From Jimgerdemannia flammicorona (taxonomy: Eukaryota; Mucoromycota; Endogonomycetes; Endogonales; Endogonaceae): a stretch of 10,276 nucleotides of DNA. The DNA lies in contig RBNI01007470.1 of the NCBI GenBank assembly GCA_003990745.1, forward strand, positions 1 to 10,276, in the 5' to 3' direction. The notes under the pieces were generated by a model that was not told the DNA's origin, did not search any database, and was given only the letters and a program-made list of their open reading frames with translations. The position numbers and the translations under genes were made by a program. Positions 1-10,276 of this stretch are shown in pieces. Positions within the stretch are counted from its first letter, which is position 1. The number at the start of each line of letters is the position of its first letter.

Positions 1-350
1 AAAAAAAAGGAGGAAGCCGGGGTGGAGATATCAAGCATACCTTCATGAAGATAAGGTCTGTTGTCGTAGATTGAGAGTACCGCGCACTACAAATTGCAGG
101 AAATCTTATTTTATGATCTTATGACATAATCAAATGGGATGCGATACCCAAACTTCAAGTCAATTTCAAATCATACCAGAATGTCCTCGCGTTTTTTATC
201 ATATTCGGTAGACGAAAAGGCCTTTCCCAAGGGAAAGAAAAATTTCGGTACGGCCTGGAGTTTCCGGAAACATAATACGTGGTTAAATATAGATTAATAA
301 ACATCTATGAGCGAGTTCGCGTGCACAGCTTTGATCATATGTTTTTCGCA
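1..350. other. Left-edge intergenic DNA, no gene supported
   Basis: This stretch lies downstream of the minus-strand gene that ends at 351 and probably contains its 3' untranslated region. I see no open frame with a codon pattern I would trust. One suggestive site is on the minus strand at 46-35, where ATGAAG is followed directly by a GTATGC splice-donor-like sequence. It could be the first exon of a gene leaving the window to the left, but nothing else supports that. Confidence 0.5.
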
Positions 351-1703
351 TCAGCGCCGATTGCTCACCATCTTTTCTCTCCGTCCATTCTCAGAAGCCG
401 GTATCTTTTCTGGCATCTCTCTATCTTCGATTTGCTGCGACTGTGATATCAGTCCTGCAAGGGACAGTGTCGCGGTGAGAGCCAGCAGTGGGGAAGACGG
501 TGGCTGTGATGGAGGCGATTGCGATAGATATGCCCCAGCCAAAAATGTAACATTTTCATCGCCGTTGTTATTCGCACGTGTAAAATCCACCTCGCTATGG
601 GCTCCTGGTGCCAACACTGGTTCTTCGTTTGAGACAAGGTTCTTTAAAGCCCGACTGGCATCGCTTTCGTAGGCAAAGGGAACCGTCGACATAAGCGAAA
701 AGTCTTCTGCGGTCTCGCCCGAGTCTTTTTCAGAATTATTTTGTGCCGCCCTCTGTGATCTGCTGGGCGAGAGGGTTGTGGATGTCGCCTCCGTTGGCTT
801 CACATCCTCCCTAGCATGATCGTCATTTCCACTGTTGACACAGTTCACAGAAGCGCCATAGCTGGCAGCCGGGCTCTCGTGGAAATTGAACAAGACCTAC
901 AGTCAAATCATTTGTGTGTGAGATACTAGCATGGAAGGTTAAATACATTTTGAATTAAGACATCGTATCGTTTAGATAGATAGCCCTCACCATCGGATGA
1001 ACGGTATCCACGTGGCCTGCACCAATCCCAAAAGGTATTAATGTGGGCGATTTTGGTGGCGAGTGGTCCATTTGGGGCTTCGGTGGTGATGAGATGAATA
1101 GCGCATTCCTCAGGGATTCTGCAAGGAAGCAAAGGGTTGGTTCACGTGATATATAATGGCCAAATGCACACAGTTGCACAAAATGTCCTTGGTTGTAAAA
1201 TTGAGCAACCGCTCGCAGGTTTTTTCTCTGTTATTGTAGGACACGATCACACCAAACACACCTGCCTGCCTGTCTGGCGACTTGCTGTTGACCCTCTTCC
1301 ATGCACGAGATTGGGGACTTCTGGGAGGAAGTGGCGGGCTATTGGGAGGCGTGGAGTTCATTTCATCTTTTGTATAGTGATGTTGAGCACGGTGGCCCTC
1401 GGTTGTTTGTGTGACGGTGTGTGAGGATACGGGTATGGGAATGGGTTGCGCGACGGTAGAGCTGACAAAATTTGTGGTTGGTTTTACGGGATCAACAGAG
1501 GAGGGCGTGGGGGGTGATCTGGGCTCGACGGAAGGATTGAGAAAGCGAGAGGCGGCAGGATATATTCTTCCGAGGTTGTCGGCTAGGAAGATTGTTGTCC
1601 GTTTTGGAAAGTAAGCGACAAGGTTCCGCAGGAAGTAGTGGGAGAAGGGCAAGTAAGCGGCGATGTGTGTTGGGGGGTGCTTACTACTGCTGCGAGTGTC
1701 CAT
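351..1703 (-). CDS. Unrecognised fungal protein, three exons
   Basis: I do not recognise the family. Proposed exons on the minus strand are 1703-1180, 1118-947 and 896-351, giving about 413 residues. Intron 1 (1179-1119, 61 bases) has donor GTGCAA and a pyrimidine-rich acceptor TTCCTTGCAG, and splicing it joins two conserved-looking frames cleanly. Intron 2 is less certain: donor GTATTT at 946 (50 bases) or GTCTTA at 961 (65 bases), acceptor TGTAG at 897; both keep the frame. The N-terminal 60 or so residues are basic and aromatic. Residues of roughly 65-135 are Pro/Ser/Thr-rich and probably disordered. The best-ordered part is about 135-245, with GVFGVIVSYN, a TTEAPNGPLATKI stretch and WDWCRPRGY. 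The tail is Ser/Asn/Glu-rich with one hydrophobic stretch (LLALTATLSLAGLI), too weak to call a membrane anchor. It shares its upstream region with the divergent rhodanese gene. The start ATG at 1703 is the first in the frame. Confidence 0.55.
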
Positions 1704-1729
1704 TATTTGCGGGAAAAGGGAGAAGAGGA

Positions 1730-1758
1730 GGGAGGGTGGTGGGTTGGCGGGGGAGGGG
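1730..1758 (+). other. G-quadruplex-capable G-rich tract
   Basis: The plus strand carries five G-runs of three or more (GGG, GGG, GGG, GGGGG, GGGG) separated by loops of one to five bases, which fits the usual four-run quadruplex pattern with a spare run. It sits 27-55 bases upstream of the minus-gene start, so in that gene's leader or core promoter the C-rich complement is the transcript-like strand. Confidence 0.55.
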
Positions 1759-1872
1759 AAGGTTATGTAATTTCATCATGACATATCAAGTCCTCGTCAG
1801 GCGAGGCGAAAAGGAGTCCGATCCGCCAGAAGCGCGTTCGTACAGACCAAGCCACAATCACCGCGGTCACAA

Positions 1873-1882
1873 ATGACATCAT
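1873..1882. promoter_or_regulatory. CYS3/MetR-like bZIP site
   Basis: ATGACATCAT matches the published Neurospora CYS3 consensus ATGRYRYCAT at every position; it lies 50 bases before the rhodanese start codon. CYS3 (MetR in Aspergillus) is the bZIP activator of sulfur-acquisition genes, and a rhodanese is a plausible target. A generic CRE-like bZIP site (TGACATCA) is an equally simple reading. Confidence 0.4.
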
Positions 1883-1931
1883 GTAGTCATCGCATCCGTT
1901 TTCCCACAATCCCCCACAATACCTTGCAATC

Positions 1932-2707
1932 ATGCTGCTTGCCCGCTTCGCTCTCCTAAGCATAATCCCGCGGGTGCCACACACCCGTCTGCTTGCTCCT
2001 CTTGCGCGTCGTGCGACCATATTCATGCCTCCGAAGCCAACCAGCGCCCTCTCTCTGCCAACTCGGACCTTCACCTCTCCGACTGCTGTTCCAAAACAGG
2101 ATGTCACCTTCGACGAACTCCAAGGTCTTGTGAAGGACCACACTCTATCCGAAAAGGTATCGATCTGTTGTATGTTTCACTGATTCCCACGCGGAAACAT
2201 CTCTAATTTATATTGACAACCAGGATTATATACTCGTCGATGTGAGAGAGCCGGAGGAACTTCTCGAGGGATACATTCCGACCGCGAAGAATCTTCCTTT
2301 AGTAAGCCTCATTTCAATCTCCTTTCATCAAAGATTCTGAATTTTGATGGGCATCACATTTCGATTTATTTAATCATGTTTTTTTTTAATCTATTATTCC
2401 TCAGAGCTCTTTTGAATCCGGCTTGAAGGCTTCTGAGCCTGAATTTGAAAAGCTTTTCGGCTTTAAAAAGCCGACCAAGGACGCCCAGATCATATTTTAC
2501 TGCAGGTCCGGGAGGCGGAGCATCATGGCAACCGAGTTTGCCAGGGCTCATGGCTACAAAGAGTCGGTATTTGGTGTGGTCGGTTCTTTTAATAATTGCT
2601 TCGATCTGGCCGTTCACCATTCATCTCAATTTTTATCATTACAGTGCAAGGAATTATCCTGGGAGCTGGCTGGAATATTCCGAAAACAATTCCAAAAAGT
2701 GATTTAG
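1932..2707 (+). CDS. Mitochondrial rhodanese-type sulfurtransferase, last exon out of frame
   Basis: This is a single-domain rhodanese, which moves sulfane sulfur from thiosulfate-like donors to acceptors through a cysteine persulfide. Exons read 1932-2156, 2224-2301, 2405-2566 and 2645-2707, with introns of 67, 103 and 78 bases, all GT-AG. The first 60 or so residues are rich in Arg, Ser, Thr and Leu with almost no acid, a typical matrix-targeting presequence. The domain follows: VTFDELQGLV, then ILVDVREPEE and GYIPTAKNLPL, then FGFKKPTKDAQIIFYC and the active-site loop CRSGRRS (Cys near residue 134). The family's closing NYPGSWLEY motif is present in exon 4, but one base out of frame: canonical splicing instead gives CKELSWELAG and stops at 2707 (175 residues in all), while the conserved frame would stop at 2702. 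Either a one-base indel, a sequence error or a non-GT donor explains this. The closest named relatives are the yeast RDL-type proteins. Confidence 0.85.
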
Positions 2708-3556
2708 CACAAGCTTGTGGTTACATTCGGTATGCCAACAAAGTACTTGACAAAAACTATCATATTGAGGGGGCTAGAGCAAGCCGTAGTATGGCTTCTA
2801 ATCGAAGAACGCGAAAGTTTATGTCTTTTATAAAAGAAATGCTCCGTTGATAATACCATTCCAATATGTTCAGCTACATTGAACTTTTTCTATACGCCAA
2901 GTGCTGGCTTCGGGATGTAGTAAACGGCCTCCTTTCCCTCATTTGATTTCGGCAAGATCTTGTATCATGTAGGATGGAGCTGCATGAAAGGTGAGGGGAG
3001 GATAAATATAAATTTAAACCGGATATGGTTACATATATATCCTACAGCCACTCGATCTTCTTCAGACCCAGTCGATAATTGTAAATTTCCACCAACATGT
3101 TCAGCCCTTAACAAAGAAACATAAGTGTAAATCATGCTCATGACATGAGAAGCCAGGAAATATGACCGGTCTGTGACAAAGGCAAATCCCTGTGACAAAA
3201 GCGAGTCATATAAATCGGGATTGTGGTTGCAAGACCTCGCTGGACACTAGGTCTTATCCTGTTATGGTAATTGCTTTTTAAATAAATGTTTCATTCGTCG
3301 GAGGATGTTTCCCAAACCCCGAAATATTCAGCAAGTAGGACCATTTTCATTACGCGCGGCTAATAATAATCATGTCGCCGATCATGAGTTTATTAATTGG
3401 CAAATGCATACGTGTGTTGTTTTCTAATTACATTCCAACAATTCCTGATAAACGCAAATCTACAGTCAGTCCCAATTTAGCGGAACATCCATCCGCCATG
3501 TGTATAAAATTGCCCTTTGCTACTAACAAATCCTTTCAACAGTCAATTTAGCCATC
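2708..3556. other. Intergenic DNA between rhodanese and MDR pseudogene
   Basis: No convincing gene is visible. An 84-codon open frame that overlaps the last rhodanese exon runs to 2850, but it resembles nothing known and is probably 3' untranslated sequence. The right end is the promoter of the MDR pseudogene. No tRNA-like B box or other RNA signature was found by eye. Confidence 0.5.
3503..3508 (+). promoter_or_regulatory. TATA box of the MDR pseudogene
   Basis: TATAAA lies 48 bases before the ATG at 3557, a normal fungal TATA position, and is followed by a C/T-rich, A-ending leader. It is the only clear TATA box next to a gene start in the window. The promoter may therefore still be intact although the gene is broken. 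Confidence 0.45.
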
Positions 3557-4694
3557 ATGCGCGCAGCTTATATTGAATCATCATTGGTCGCGATGTCGCT
3601 AAGCCTGTTATCACGAAGGAGATCAAATCATTATCGAAGTCTACGCCGTGTCGCTTAACCTTATCGGTATGTGCATTCTGATATAGGTCGGGCGCTGGCT
3701 GTTTTGTATGGCTGGCTCACGGTCATTCCCTTAACCTCGCACCATCTAGACTACAAGCGCAATAAGGGCAATCTCAAACTGATTCACGCCGACACTTTCC
3801 CCCACCGTTTTGGCTACGACGTTTCTGGCATCGTCGCGGGCACCACGAAATTCAAAGCTGGCGACGCCGTCTTCGCCCGGGTTGGAGAGATCGAGGCCGG
3901 AACGCTCGCCGATTTTGTACTGACGACCGAAACCAAGTGCGCCCGCAAGCCCAGCAACTTGACACATATCGAAGCATCGTGCATCCCGCTCGCGGGCTTG
4001 ACGGTCTATCAGAGCTTTGTGAGAGCCCAGGTTCGCGAGAAGAACTACAAAAAGTGTTTATCCCGGCGTCGGCTTCAAGCATGGGGCTGGAAGGACGAGT
4101 TGTCAAAAGGAAGGTGGGCGGAGACCCCAAAGAGATAGTGGGAAGGTAGGGCAATCCAGTTGGCGAAGAATCACTTCGGGGTTGAGGAAGTCGCGACAAC
4201 GGTGAGCGAGAAGAAAATCGAGCTGGTAAAGGGTTTGGGTGCCAGCATAGTAATAGATTACAAGAAGGTCGGTGAAATACATAATTGTGCATTTGCTTTG
4301 TCTGTTTATTTCGCGTCTTATGCAAATACCACTATTTGCATTCATGGAAAAGCTCTCCTCGTATGACTTCGTTTTCGACACCACAGGGCGGTGCCCTCTT
4401 CTCCATTGCCACCATCCCCGACGGGGCGGAAGTCACCGAAATTCCCTGGGTTTGTTGTGCGTCACCTCCTCGCGCAAATACAAGAAAGCCGCCAAGGCTG
4501 CGGGAGTCGAATACCAATATTTGCTGATGATCCCCTCGGGTGAGGATCTCGAGGTGCTCGCGCAGTTGAGCGAGGAGAAGCTTCATCCTGTAGTTGATTC
4601 CATATACGAACTGGAGGAGACGAGAAAGGCTGTCGAACGTTTGATGGATGGGCATGTGACTGGGAAAGTTATGGTACGAGTGAAGCAGGAGTAG
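3557..4694 (+). pseudogene. Zinc-type / quinone-oxidoreductase-like MDR pseudogene
   Basis: Pieces of a medium-chain dehydrogenase/reductase, an NAD(P)H-dependent reductase fold, are found in order over the length expected for about 330 residues. Exon 1 begins MRAAYIES, then changes frame to DVAKPVITK and again to IIIEVYAVSLN. A good intron follows (3667-3749, donor GTATGT, acceptor CTAG). Then comes the longest intact part, the GroES-like catalytic domain: FPHRFGYDVSGIVAG, FKAGDAVFARVG and ASCIPLAGLTVYQS. The frame shifts after this. KVFIPAS marks the start of the nucleotide-binding fold, but the expected glycine-rich loop is replaced by an odd basic stretch. The frame returns at AIQLAKNHFG and GASIVIDYKK. 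A probable intron (about 4272-4352) leads to YDFVFDTTG, one more shift to FSIATIPDGAEVTEIP, and a shift back to the C-terminal part ending KVMVRVKQE at the stop, 4692-4694. At least six frame changes make it non-functional as read. The damage is indel-type, not RIP-type. Confidence 0.8.
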
Positions 4695-5167
4695 AGACAA
4701 ATTTGTTATGTGACATCATCTCGTTATGACAGGATTCGTTTGTAACTGATTTGTCATTAGGATTTTGGACAGGAATTGATCTAATTTGTTAATACATTCT
4801 TGGCAGCATATGATCGACGAGAATGATCATAAAGCAACCTCTTGTGAACAAGCCGAATCTTCGGGTTGTAAAAATCGATTTTTTCATCCCTGGCTGAAAT
4901 TAGGGAAGAATCCTTGAGCACGTATCCCTACATACGCCTTTATACCATTACCACCAATCATTATAATCGTTCTCCCAGCACACAACTGGTTCCTCACCCA
5001 AAAGAACAAATTTTATCTACTCCCCGTATTATTCACCCCGAAGGAATGCAGTCATATAATCCGCATCATTGGTAAGCACAGCCCAACAACGATGCAAGGT
5101 CAACTTTTCTAAAAGGAAGAGTAAGCATTATTACGAGGAGGCGTGAAAAAAAGGAACTACCACCACC

Positions 5168-5193
5168 AAAAATAAAATAAAATAAAATAAAAA
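5168..5193. repeat. AAAAT microsatellite
   Basis: About five perfect units of the five-base motif AAAAT stand in the 3' region of the G-protein gamma gene. It looks like an ordinary slippage microsatellite; I attach no function to it. Confidence 0.8.
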
Positions 5194-5475
5194 CTAGCAG
5201 TTAACTAAACACTAATAAATTAAATGTCCAGTGATGACTGCAATATGACAAGAGGTTGTATCATGAGAGCGAATAAAGCTCACAATAATCACAATGAACT
5301 CGCATGCCAGATAGAAATACAAATATCAGCGTAATAAGATAAATAATAATAATAAATGTCCGTTAAAGGTTGAATGTGTGGAAAACATATTTGCTTGAAA
5401 CGGGTAGAAGGAGCCATGGTGACAGTGGTATAAAGGAGAAATCGACGAATGTTCTATGTTGTTGTCAGAGGAAAG

Positions 5476-5507
5476 CTTTTTTTCTTTTTTCCTTTTTTCT
5501 TTTTCTT
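5476..5507. repeat. Pyrimidine (T/C) tract
   Basis: An unbroken run of T with scattered C on the plus strand, which is a purine tract in the sense of the G-protein gamma transcript, about 180-210 bases past its stop codon. It is low-complexity sequence of no clear role. Confidence 0.7.
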
Positions 5508-5687
5508 GAGTACCTGTCGTGGTTGCAAAACGCGTACAAAAAATAGTGTGAGGGAGTGTGTCCGCATATAGTCAAGGAGGAAGGGGGGGAAGAGAGATCG
5601 TTATAACCAACAGGGTCAGATGTGACGCCCTCCAAACAACTCACAGTGTTGAATATGCGGCAACGTAGAGCATGAATATGTCGCCGT

Positions 5688-6076
5688 CTACATTATTATA
5701 CAACAGCCTCCGCTGGTTGTGGGCTGGTAAGGATCGGCACCACGATCCACTGGACCCCACACGGATGGCACGAGGTGATCCTTCGTTGAGTTGCAGTATT
5801 TAATGAGTCTGTTGGAGAGTTTCACGTTCGTCCGAGAAGAGAAAGGATGAGAAAGGTAAAACGTTGAAGAGGCGGTATGCAAATTCAGCAGTTTCTGTCA
5901 ACTTGACGATATACGACGATTACGCAAAAGGAAGCTTACGCTTCGCTCGCCTCGGACACTTTGATGCGCGGAATGTCGAGTTGCTCGCGCAGGCGCTGGT
6001 TGTGCTCAAGAGCGCGCTTGAGCTTCGACTCAGATAGATTTTGAGAGCGTTTGCTGTTACTTCGGTAGCCGGACAT
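5688..6076 (-). CDS. gng-1: Heterotrimeric G-protein gamma subunit
   Basis: The gamma subunit pairs with G-beta and anchors the dimer to the plasma membrane, passing on pheromone and nutrient-receptor signals. Two exons, 6076-5940 and 5808-5688, give 85 residues, the normal size for filamentous fungi (about 85-95). The intron (5939-5809, 131 bases) has donor GTAAGC and acceptor CCAACAG and splits an Ala codon. The N-terminal helix LKRALEHNQRLREQL is the coiled coil that contacts G-beta. The segment PRIKVSEASEALIKYCNST is strongly conserved, as is the VPSVWGPVDRGADPY motif. The end is GGCCIIM: the penultimate Cys group forms a CaaX box (CIIM), where Met favours farnesylation, and the Cys before it is a likely palmitoylation site. 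An in-frame ATG upstream at 6145 would add 23 residues; I prefer 6076 because family members begin only a few residues before this helix. Orthologues are Neurospora gng-1, Aspergillus gpgA and yeast STE18. Confidence 0.93.
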
Positions 6077-6366
6077 TGCTGTGGTCTTTGCAGAGAAGAG
6101 ACTCAGGGGTGGCTGACACCGCTTGGACTTAGGGGGTTTTTGCAATTGTTGTGACGGTGTTGACTAATCTCTCACAGGCGACACCAATATCAATGGCATA
6201 CCCATTTGTAGCCTGTCCAACTACCCCGCTTTCTCTTGAGCAAGCCATCCTTCTCAGAAGCCAGAGACCATTACTTAATATCTCATGCAACTCCCTGTTC
6301 CAGGGCAGGTCGCGTCATTATGCTATATCGTAAAGTTACTAATCTGAAAGCAGTAGTTCATGTGCA

Positions 6367-6383
6367 CCCCCCTCCCCCCCCCC
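6367..6383. repeat. Poly-C run
   Basis: Six C, one T and ten C in a row on the plus strand. It is a homopolymer that sequencing may count wrongly, lying about 290 bases upstream of the G-gamma start. Confidence 0.85.
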
Positions 6384-6477
6384 ATTATGACTCCGTATCA
6401 GATTATCGTATGGGTTTACGGATGGTTTGCATTGGTCATTACAAGCCACCACTGCCTTAAATCATATGTAACTGGCG

Positions 6478-6550
6478 CCCCCTAAGGCCCCTAAGGACCC
6501 CTAAAGCCCCTAAGCCCCCCTAAAGCCTCTAAGACTCTAAGACTTAAGGA
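6478..6550. repeat. Degenerate CCCCTAAG tandem repeat, G-quadruplex motif on minus strand
   Basis: About eight units of eight to ten bases follow the pattern CCCCTAAGG / CCCCTAAAG, well kept in the first five and decaying to CTCTAAGA at the right. Each good unit contains the fungal telomere hexamer CCCTAA, but the spacing is eight to ten rather than six bases. Read on the minus strand, the five best units give runs of four to six G with loops of four to six bases (CTTA, CTTTA, TCCTTA, CCTTA), an excellent quadruplex motif. It lies 400-475 bases upstream of the G-gamma start and near the border of the AT-rich block. Confidence 0.75.
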
Positions 6551-6972
6551 TAGCTCCAGATCTTCCGAGTGCCACTCACACCCAGCCGAGGTGGTGGACA
6601 CTCCACAGAGTATTTATGCTCAAGACAAAAAAGGGCGCTTAAGATACGATTTTTCCTGTGAAATCTCGTCACGACCCAATCGTTTTGAGTAACTCCTAAT
6701 GCTTTTGTATTTTACTGAAAATATAACTGAATGTTTATATTCAAAAGCTATCTAGTGGTAAGCGTATGCAAATCAACAGTATAGCATGTCATCGTTGGGT
6801 GCGAAATTCATATTATTACAGGGTATGAGAGATTTCGAAACATCAAATAAAATAAAATTCAATAAAATGAAATGACTACAAATATTAACTATCAATAGCT
6901 AATAGAGATCTTAAGTAATATATATACTATCTCTTTGAAGTATAAATTTCCTACCTCTGATAAAAATTTTAC

Positions 6973-6988
6973 AAAAAAAAAAAAAAAA
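6973..6988 (+). repeat. Poly-A run
   Basis: Sixteen consecutive A residues inside the AT-rich block. It could be the tail of a non-LTR retroelement insertion, but no target duplication or coding remnant next to it supports that over chance. Confidence 0.7.
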
Positions 6989-7558
6989 TGAATAAATGAG
7001 TTATATTTTTAACAGAAAAATAATATTTAAAAAATCATTTTTTGCAATCTTTAATTTATCTGCTAAATAAATTTAAAGATATTCTTACCTATAGACAAAG
7101 AGATATAAATAATATTAGTAAACTTTAGTTTATTATAATATTTAAAACTAATATTTTATATACTAATTTCTTCTTCATCATCACTATTCTCTAGGAGAGC
7201 TAGTAGTTTGTTCTTCTGGTCTTTCTTTTCATACTACTTCTGTTTTCTTTTCTTCTTATTATAATGAATCTTGTAAATCTTAGTAATATATTTACAGCAC
7301 TCATCTATATACTTTATATAGTATATTCAAATTTCATAAGAATATACTTCTTATAGAATATATTCTTTAGTAATTTTTTTGTATCAATCTTCTTCACTAA
7401 TCTATTTAATCTTCTTTTTCTTTTGAGTGGTTACTATATAGGCTGGCTTACTGTCTTCTTTTTCTATCTCAGAGAGTACTTTTTTATTAATAGATGGGAA
7501 TTTACATCTTTTGTTCTCAGTAGATAATCTATATCTTCTGAGAGTTTATGTCAATTAT

Positions 7559-7568
7559 AGCCTTGGCT
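7559..7568 (+). repeat. Target-site duplication, left copy
   Basis: AGCCTTGGCT, identical to 7901-7910. On the minus strand it encodes part of the KAKA segment of the disrupted protease. The exact border is uncertain by one base because a T also matches on the outer side (TAGCCTTGGCT at 7558 and 7900). Confidence 0.75.
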
Positions 7569-7900
7569 AATACTCTCAATGAATTAAATTAAATTTAATT
7601 TGATGAGATCAAAGGTCCAATTTGATTCAATTTAAATCAAATCAAAGGCTAATTCAATTTGAGGTCTAATTCAACCTCTATTTTTTTAAATATAATAACT
7701 TGATAAATATATATCCAAAGTTAATAATATTTAGCTTGTTAGATTCCTCTTATATAAGGGAATCTAACAAGTTAAAATTTATTAAATTTAGATGTGTATT
7801 TGTCGAGTTATTATATTTTGAAAAATAGGGTTCAAATTGGACTCTCAATTTGATTTGAATTTGATTTAATTTGAATTAATTTGATTCATTTGGGAGTACT
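7569..7900. mobile_element. Palindromic MITE-like element inserted in the retroelement remnant
   Basis: The 332 bases are an almost complete inverted repeat around a 37-base near-perfect palindrome at 7735-7771. The left arm begins AATACTCTCAATGAATT and the complement of the right arm begins AGTACTCCCAAATGAATC. The arms match outward for most of their length, with a left-arm surplus of about 30 bases, and many arm-to-arm differences are C/T or G/A. It has no coding capacity. AGCCTTGGCT stands at both borders, and excision with one border copy restores the host reading frame. A 10-base duplication with terminal inverted repeats fits Mutator-like non-autonomous elements (8-11 bases) best, but the family is not proven. 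Confidence 0.8.
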
Positions 7901-7910
7901 AGCCTTGGCT
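7901..7910 (+). repeat. Target-site duplication, right copy
   Basis: AGCCTTGGCT, the perfect partner of 7559-7568. That both copies remain identical while the surroundings are mutated suggests that few susceptible sites lie in it or that the insertion is not very old relative to the mutation phase. Confidence 0.75.
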
Positions 7911-8419
7911 TTGTAAAGTCACTAATTATTAATGAGGATTTTATGATTAGTAGTATTTATGATAATTATATCTACTGAAATAGTTGCTCCTCTAAAATTA
8001 ATAAAGATATCTTAAATTTTTTTTAGAAGAGTAGTTCTTATATTATCTGTTGTAATAAATACTAATTTTATCATTCTTTTAATTTTCCAACCTAGGCAGT
8101 CTATAGCTTTCTTACTGAGAAGTCATTCTTATATTTCTATATTAATAATAGCTTTAAAGATCCTATCTTTAATCTGATAGATAGTATTGATAGAGATCTT
8201 ATAGTTGTTTTTTTTACTTTCTTTATCTAAATTCTCTTATATATTATTATTCTCAACTATCTTCCACTTTTGATCCTTAACTATTTTAGTAAGTCTCAAT
8301 CTTATTTATTATCTAAAGATAGAGATTTCTGCTAACTATCTAAAGGTTATATTGACTTTTTGCTGACTGAGATCTTTGAATATATTATACTTGAAGATCT
8401 TTATAAGCACATAATCTCT

Positions 8420-8540
8420 AAATTATCAAAATCACACATTACTCTCAGAACAAATTTAGAAACCATATGCAAGATCACAAAGCTGAGTTAAACCAAAGTT
8501 ACAAATTATAAAGCTGAGTTAACTAAAAGTTACAGAATAT
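8420..8540 (+). repeat. 31-base-period leader repeat, four units (mutated copy)
   Basis: Four units of 32, 27, 31 and 31 bases can be aligned to units 1, 3, 4 and 5 of the intact leader at 9424-9575. The second unit of the intact copy is missing here, precisely and without scar. The best preserved word is AAAGCTGAGTTAA, seen twice. Confidence 0.75.
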
Positions 8541-8667
8541 AAGATTTACAAAAACAGAATCTTATCAATTAAGACTGAAAGTATATATATTGAATATATA
8601 GATATATCAAAATGAAGAACTATAACAAACCAAATAAATAACTATAACTCTTAAACATATACTAAAT

Positions 8668-9400
8668 ATGATCACTGAAATCTATAACTATATTTATACT
8701 GACATTTAGAATACTATTATCAACCAAGCTATAGCTTTTCTACTTCTTATAAATATCTATAATCTAGCATCTCTTTATTTTATAAAAACCTAATAGAATA
8801 CTCTGAACATACTTAGTAAAGCCTACTGAATTAGACAAATATCAAGCTACTATTAGATTGACTACCTTTTAGAAGATATAGTTAGTTACTACTATAATAT
8901 AGATATTACTGAAATATCTCAATATCAGAAACTCATCACTTGTAAATACTGAGAATACTTCTATAAGTATAGTACCTTTATTCTCCATCTCTGAGTTACT
9001 ATCACTAAAATGGTTACTACTCTATTTTATAGTCAAATTGATGATATGGTACAAGAACTCAATTACAAGTATATCAAGTATGCTCAAACTACAGATAGAC
9101 TCTTTCTACACTCAGATGACTATATTCAATAAATGCCCCAAGTTAGATACTATAAAGGATATCTATGATGTAATCTAGTTCAATAATAATAAAACAGAAG
9201 ATAATAATCTCTCTGATACTGATATAATCTCTAGCCAAAGTTCTCTACTAATATTGATCACTCTGCTGACCTTACTAATAAACTTACAATAGTTCATAAC
9301 TACTATTGAGATAATGATCACTGATATGAGTACTAATCTGCATTCATGTCTAATTACTTCAACTACAATAAAAAGACCAGAGAATATAACCTATACCTTC
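8668..9400 (+). pseudogene. RIP-killed copy of the repeat-encoded protein
   Basis: The start codon ATG survives, but stops appear at once. The first, TAG at 8707-8709, stands where the intact copy has Trp codon 14 (TGG). Others sit at positions of CGA, TGG, CAG and CAA codons in the intact copy, for example TAA-TAG where the intact copy has CGA-TGG. This is the expected nonsense spectrum of C-to-T and G-to-A mutation on both strands. Because this copy begins 1026 bases earlier, its part from about 9251 to 9400 shows, in degraded form, what follows the window edge in the intact copy: a Leu/Ile/Thr-rich continuation of at least 40 codons with few stops. The copy is then cut off by the start of the second unit. 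Confidence 0.85.
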
Positions 9401-9423: not shown

Positions 9424-9575
9424 AAGCCACAGAAATCACATGTCACCCTCTTAACAAGCCACTGAAATCGCACGTGACCTCTGAACAAATCTGGAAATCA
9501 CCTGTGCGATCACAAAGCTGAGTCAAACAGAAGTCACAGCACACAAAGCTGAGTCAATACAAAGTCACAGAACAC
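9424..9575 (+). repeat. 31-base-period leader repeat, five units
   Basis: Units lie at 9424-9455 (32 bases), 9456-9486 (31), 9487-9513 (27), 9514-9544 (31) and 9545-9575 (31). Units 1 and 2 share AAGCCAC-GAAATC-CA and a GTCACC/GTGACC core; units 4 and 5 share AAAGCTGAGTCAA and AAGTCACAG; unit 3 is intermediate. Unit 2 contains CACGTGAC, a bHLH-type E-box. The array lies 119 bases before the coding start and could be a promoter or leader element of the mobile unit. Confidence 0.75.
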
Positions 9576-9693
9576 AAGGTTCACACAAATGGAATCTTAC
9601 CAATCAAGAACAGATGCATATATACTGAGCCCTGAGATGCGTCGAAACAGAGAACCAAAACAAATAATAACCATAACTTCCAAAAACACAAAC

Positions 9694-10276
9694 ATGACTA
9701 CCGAGATCTACAACCGCATCCGCGCTGACATTTGGAATGCCATTGTCAACCGAGCCACACCCCCTCTGCCTCTTATGAATATCCATAGCCTCGCACTCCT
9801 TTACTTTGTGGAAGCCCGATGGAATGCCCTGAACATGATTAACGAGGCCCACCAGATTGGACAAATATCAAGCTACTACCAGATCGGCCGCCTCCTGGAA
9901 GACATGGTCGAACACTACCATGATACAGATATTACCCAGATGTCTCAACACCAGAAGCTCATTGCCCGCAAATACCGAGAACTCTTCTACGAGTACAGCA
10001 CCTTTATTCCCTGCCTCCGAGTTACTACCAGCGAAATGGTTGCTACTCTGTCCTATAGCCAAATCGATGATATGATACAAGAACTCAACCACAAGTATCT
10101 CGAGTATGTTCAGACTACTGACAGAACCTTCTCACACCCCAACGACCACATCCTGCAAATGCCCCAAGTTGGATATGCCATGAAGGATGTCTACGATATA
10201 ATCAACTTCGATGAAGACGAAGCAGAAGACAATGATCCCTCTGATGCTGACATGACCTCAAGCCAAGGATCTCTAC
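9694..10276 (+). CDS. Repeat-encoded protein of unknown family, 3' end beyond window
   Basis: From ATG at 9694 (context CAAACATGAC) the frame stays open for 194 codons up to the window end. The start is supported by the aligned ATG of the mutated copy at 8668. I do not recognise the family. The visible part is mostly helical and hydrophilic: MTTEIYNRIRADIWNAI opens it, a moderately hydrophobic stretch follows near residues 24-40 (PLPLMNIHSLALLYFVEARW), then YYQIGRLLEDMVEHYHD, KLIARKYRELFYEYSTF and SYSQIDDMIQELNHKYLEYV. From about 172 it turns strongly acidic (NFDEDEAEDNDPSDAD). No signal peptide, zinc knuckle or catalytic motif is seen. Its repeated, RIP-targeted setting makes a transposon protein likely, perhaps a Gag-like or accessory first reading frame. 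A duplicated host gene is the alternative. It escaped the mutation that destroyed its neighbour copy. Confidence 0.7.
   Translation, partial: MTTEIYNRIRADIWNAIVNRATPPLPLMNIHSLALLYFVEARWNALNMINEAHQIGQISSYYQIGRLLEDMVEHYHDTDITQMSQHQKLIARKYRELFYEYSTFIPCLRVTTSEMVATLSYSQIDDMIQELNHKYLEYVQTTDRTFSHPNDHILQMPQVGYAMKDVYDIINFDEDEAEDNDPSDADMTSSQGSL

Follow-up and report, generated by a model that had tools for sequence, protein, structure and literature searches.

The element and its setting

The DNA under analysis, referred to below as the window, is the whole 10,276-nt stretch of contig C7470. It carries a foldback element within a degraded, retroelement-like repeat (Table 1). The element is a MITE of an ordinary kind, one of hundreds of copies: short, non-coding and bounded by terminal inverted repeats, with no listed frame of 80 aa or more inside the window copy.

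Table 1. Features in and around the element, with positions in the window.
Feature	Position	Strand	Sequence or basis
Host repeat, AT-rich, many stops; retroelement-like by the first-pass reading	7140..8460	-	flank matches
MITE, very probably of hAT type, 334 bp	7568..7901	.	termini with 8-bp duplications in 38 other copies; orientation from end type
Target-site duplication, left copy, 8 bp	7560..7567	.	GCCTTGGC
Target-site duplication, right copy, 8 bp	7902..7909	.	GCCTTGGC, identical to left copy
Type-A end	7568		TAATACTCTCAATGAATT...
Type-B end	7901		TAGTACTCCCAAATGAATC..., read on minus strand
Terminal inverted repeat, left	7568..7579	+	TAATACTCTCAA; other copies TAGTGCTCCCAA
Terminal inverted repeat, right	7890..7901	-	TAGTACTCCCAA, minus-strand reading
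Subterminal YRAATY repeat region, left	7580..7709	.	8 matches per 130 bp
Subterminal YRAATY repeat region, right	7760..7889	.	9 matches per 130 bp
Central near-palindrome, 37 bases (13-base arms around 11 bases)	7735..7771	.	sequence and fold

The first-pass annotation had described a foldback with a 37-base central palindrome, and this description was borne out, the window copy having arms of 119 nt that are 77% complementary. Folded as single-stranded DNA, the element reached -78.6 kcal/mol, compared with a mean of -26.0 for its shuffles (z = -13.5; none of 100 shuffles folded as well), and its alignment to its own complement scored 147 against a maximum of 63 over 200 shuffles. The foldback is thus genuine, with scores far outside those of shuffled sequence.

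The GC-richer part of the window holds rhodanese-like and zinc-type dehydrogenase-like pieces at 2423-2707 and 3671-4694, for which Pfam returned PF00581 and PF13602 over their cut-offs and PF08240 under its own. Along with the pronounced C-to-T bias between the two gag-like copies described below, these pieces suggest that the host is a filamentous fungus. The G+C content drops from 0.46 (1-6700) to 0.23 (6700-7559), and three 19-base direct repeats of the type CCCCTAARGCC lie at 6479-6535.

Copies in the genome and longer elements with the same ends

A search of the 134.8-Mb assembly (7754 contigs), in which the best 40 of 1126 first-look candidates were scored, showed that the MITE has matches at many other sites in its own genome. 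A 33-position terminal pattern gave 279 matches, compared with none for the reversed control. The 30 copies that were aligned are 303 to 429 bp long. Termini of hAT elements begin with the consensus YARNG. They are also short, with inverted repeats of 10-25 bp (PMC3942097), and the 12-base termini found here, TAGTGCTCCCAA in several copies and TAATACTCTCAA and TAGTACTCCCAA in the window, are of this kind.

Two long elements, L091 (4586 bp) and L092 (4625 bp), have the same termini as the MITE and are flanked by duplications agreeing at 6 of 8 positions with two transitions and at 7 of 8 with one, respectively; their right ends were picked from two and three candidates. Each contains a match to PF05699, the hAT dimerisation domain (L091, C49:39469-39669, 4.9e-11; L092, C218:20139-20348, 4.8e-12), about 1.6 kb inside a terminus of the MITE's end-B type. 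The two are alike over 2847 columns at 75%, and stops now interrupt their transposase regions. None of five open pieces taken from the long elements was assigned to a hAT family by Pfam, and the one piece compared with solved structures had no match, so that the genome-wide PF05699 matches are what the hAT assignment depends on. A Cohesin_load match of one open piece fell below its cut-off and was disregarded.

The resemblance between the MITEs and the long elements extends well inside the termini. When nine hand-chosen MITEs were compared with L091 and L092, with matches below 45 columns excluded, homology reached 139 columns at 88% for end B (L017 versus L091) and 125 columns at 78% for end A (L077 versus L092). 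The window copy is among the weaker ones: its left end matches end A of L091 over 106 columns at 73%, and its right end likewise matches L091 end A, over 71 columns at 80%, because the repeat-rich ends resemble each other. Counted over 130 bp and without a shuffle control, YRAATY hexamers number 15-21 at the ends of L091 and L092, about 1 in the interiors of these two elements and 8-17 at the ends of four MITEs, the window copy included, in keeping with the subterminal repeat arrays of hAT elements. In all, four loci combine end B with transposase-type DNA, and the second end was recovered in two; in the other two (C85 and C4), the stretch read held only one-mismatch candidates for it, without matching duplications. 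Eight loci (L061, L065, L068, L072, L075, L081, L087 and L088) combine the MITE's end B with other interiors, and the longer elements among them form two groups or more (L065/L081 and L061/L068/L088).

The hAT transposase acting on the MITE might still have come from a family other than the relatives of L091 and L092. The genome does hold at least 150 PF05699 matches (762 first-look candidates), and neither long element contains a convincing counterpart of the MITE's palindromic core, so that the MITE is no simple deletion product of L091 or L092. Against such cross-mobilisation, the identity of the 12-base termini and a homology of the ends that reaches 139 columns indicate the L091/L092 family, and the fetched stretches of the 30 best-scoring PF05699 loci contained no exact copy of the termini (one-mismatch sites occurred in 18 of the 30), an absence that also tells against the hAT reading itself. 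We therefore consider mobilisation by another family unlikely, and favour a source among the relatives of L091 and L092.

The core is common to the aligned copies and could in principle be a functional part, such as a transcribed hairpin feeding small-RNA silencing, rather than filler. No special conservation of it was seen, the mean pairwise identity in 30-column bins ranging from 0.73 to 0.87 along the MITE, apart from one sparse bin at 1.00. This fairly even profile counts against a functional core, which we regard as very unlikely.

Target duplication and empty sites

A direct repeat of 10 bases, AGCCTTGGCT, is indeed present, its copies at 7559-7568 and 7901-7910 being separated by 332 bases, and the first-pass annotation had read it as a 10-base target duplication of a Mutator-like element. 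We compared the flanks of 38 other copies in which both termini are exact and which were chosen without reference to the duplication, a choice made to avoid selection bias. They comprise 25 of the 29 loci of the first genome search (window excluded; L009, L014, L025 and L029 lack an exact end) and 13 of 30 terminal-pattern loci, the remaining 17 having no exact second end within the searched 560 bp. In an earlier pass, which compared flanking 8-mers, allowed one mismatch per end and partly selected the end pair by the duplication, both termini had been placed in 29 of the 30 loci of the first search, L025 being without a right end.

Among the 38 copies, the flanks agreed on average at 5.8 of 8 positions, compared with 2.7 in mismatched pairings, and 21 copies matched at 7 or 8 positions, as did 0.2% of the mismatched pairings. 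Identity was 0.63-0.79 at each of the eight positions and at control level immediately outside them. Perfect flank pairs occurred in six copies at length 8 and in none at any other length from 4 to 12. Many mismatches between duplication copies are transitions. At least five positions agreed in 30 of the 38 copies; the other eight, which have both canonical ends and fewer than five agreements, are a point against the hAT reading. For hAT elements 8 bp is the usual length, with groups of 5, 6 and 7 bp also existing (PMC12730594), and it is this usual length that the comparison over the 38 copies singles out.

The element is therefore 334 bp long, not 332, and the 10-mer consists of the 8-bp duplication, the terminal T/A of the element and a flanking A/T that matches by chance. 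A Mutator-like (MULE) MITE with a 10-bp duplication, the alternative that the 10-base repeat itself favours and for which the genome would offer at least 21 MULE-type transposase matches (PF10551), is highly improbable and was rejected on the comparison over the 38 copies. The outer A and T that it requires are both present in 5 of the 38, 8 bp is the only duplication length common to the other copies, and the recovered elements that have these termini contain a hAT domain. The search for copies with the same termini and duplications of 9-11 bases that had been suggested as a check thus yielded the copies, with duplications of 8 bp instead, and a different duplication length in other copies is the very outcome that had been named as contradicting the proposal. 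A superfamily call made from one insertion is hereby corrected from Mutator to hAT. More generally, a direct repeat can be lengthened by chance where the outer flank matches the terminal base of the element, an effect that stays hidden when the flanks are joined.

Duplications of the Ac type of hAT elements follow the consensus nTnnnnAn. In the 30 copies with at least five agreements, T at position 2 was present in both duplication copies in 20 and A at position 7 in 16; the window duplication GCCTTGGC has neither. The central TA of the Buster pattern nnnTAnnn was seen in 1 of the 30. Judged by these base patterns, the family may lean to the Ac-type group rather than to Buster.

Empty sites were sought in the host repeat as well. 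Each flank of the MITE had 39 other matches (the 40 best scored of 858 and 468 candidates), and these form 23 pairs whose members share contig and strand and are no more than 5 kb apart. At an empty site, the flanks should lie 10 bases apart, 8 of them target and 2 omitted from the queries. This gap was found in 19 of the 23 pairs, the remaining four having gaps of 9, 14, 18 and 1108, one each, so that the search for empty sites proposed in the first-pass annotation succeeded. We read 16 junctions, 14 with a gap of 10 and two with gaps of 14 and 18; a single target copy was present in related form in 14 of the 16, and in L104 and L105 the target site is adjoined by an added TA-rich stretch, of 4 and 8 bases, that shifts the frame. 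In a retroelement copy on C2472, the flanks are about 1.1 kb apart at this site, which suggests a different insertion nearby.

Insertion of the MITE into a retroelement-like repeat, as originally claimed, is thus upheld by the other copies and the empty sites. These same empty sites, together with the target duplications and the numerous scattered copies that have these ends, contradict a foldback born in place by inverted duplication or palindromic replication error without insertion, which only the long inverted-repeat structure would suggest and whose probability is negligible, and this origin was rejected.

The joined flanks had also been offered as an independent test of the borders. On the minus strand, LYKAKA is indeed collinear with IIDINSQKI in the joined flanks of the window, and the same order occurs in related form and in one frame at 14 of the 16 other junctions read. 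However, any register of the cut through a direct repeat gives the same joined sequence, so that this test cannot tell 8 from 10 bp; a clean insertion is supported by the empty sites and not by the frame. Nor does excision restore a disrupted frame. The inserted length, 342 bp, is divisible by three and leaves the frame unshifted, and stops occur in the flanking frame itself. The protease reading of that frame likewise went unconfirmed, since it gave no Pfam family when searched as one frame with X at stops, and none of 150 listed RVP_2 matches (3512 first-look candidates), compared by eye, overlaps the retroelement flank matches.

Proposed mobilisation, related systems and decay

Taken with its termini, its 8-bp duplication and the hAT-domain elements that have the same ends, the element at 7568-7901 is almost certainly a non-autonomous, Ds-like MITE of the hAT superfamily, which would have been moved in trans by cut-and-paste. 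The MITE, which has no gene, would keep the expected targets of a hAT transposase, namely the 12-base termini and the dense subterminal YRAATY array. A transposase from 4.6-kb elements with the same ends would bind both MITE ends and, supplied in trans, cut the MITE from its donor site; the MITE would then have been joined at its present site through an 8-bp staggered cut, giving the duplication of GCCTTGGC. This course is modelled on what is reported for the Kat1 hAT transposase, which nicks at the terminus, forms a hairpin on the flank and carries out strand transfer (PMC4763223). The family is presumably inactive at present.

Maize Ac/Ds (Ds1, Ds2; PMC3260210) is alike in pairing short elements, present in hundreds of copies with 8-bp duplications, with a transposase element some 4.6 kb long that has the same termini and subterminal repeats, and in that the interior of the short elements is largely not from the autonomous one; the MITE core, without a match in the transposons, resembles this filler of Ds. 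Ds1 has little in common with Ac beyond 11 bp and a few hexamers, and Ds2 about 200 bp, whereas the MITE ends here are homologous over up to 139 columns. The sequences themselves differ, and the present MITEs are long foldbacks whose copies differ mainly by transitions. Mar, a MITE family of the hAT Buster group in Drosophila (PMC3517528), is similarly AT-rich and non-coding, with 8-bp duplications, 11-bp termini and only relic full-length elements found; its duplications follow nnnTAnnn, in contrast to the single TA-centred case and the enrichment of T at position 2 and A at position 7 described above. The ends recognised by Kat1 of Kluyveromyces lactis combine terminal repeats with AATTCA/TGAATT subterminal repeats, which the authors speculated to enhance transposase activity (PMC4763223), and the dense hexamers here are comparable; Kat1 itself is a domesticated yeast transposase. 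In Fusarium oxysporum, mimp (miniature Impala) and mFot5 are also short non-coding fungal elements tied to larger transposons (PMC3599309), Impala and Fot5 in their case and hAT elements in ours. This MITE family was not found in the literature searched, although it may have been published before. With hundreds of short copies and 4.6-kb relatives in one genome, probably fungal, the family is an Ac/Ds-like pair that can serve annotation and help to date RIP-like decay.

Over the 305 of 473 alignment columns used, 30 oriented copies, the window included, have a median divergence of 0.18 and 3.4 transitions per transversion, a pattern consistent with RIP-like decay. Nine copies (L004, L005, L006, L007, L019, L022, L063, L067 and L085) were left out of this alignment, seven of them with fewer than five duplication agreements. 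MITEs, transposons and host repeat alike have probably decayed through RIP-like mutation of the C-to-T type. The two duplications of the window are identical, like those of 6 of the 38 other copies, which may hint that this insertion came later than much of the surrounding decay.

A gag-like stretch occurs twice in the window, at 8444-8963 and 9479-9989, about 1.03 kb apart, one copy being AT-rich and the other GC-richer. They differ at 239 of 843 aligned positions; at 181 of these 239 the AT-rich copy shows C>T or G>A, with change rates highest at CpG (35/52) and CpA (84/141), a substitution pattern that reads as a RIP-like signature. The frame of the GC-richer copy is open to the window end (229 aa), and a protein search with it returned one JGI hypothetical protein among 41 candidates.
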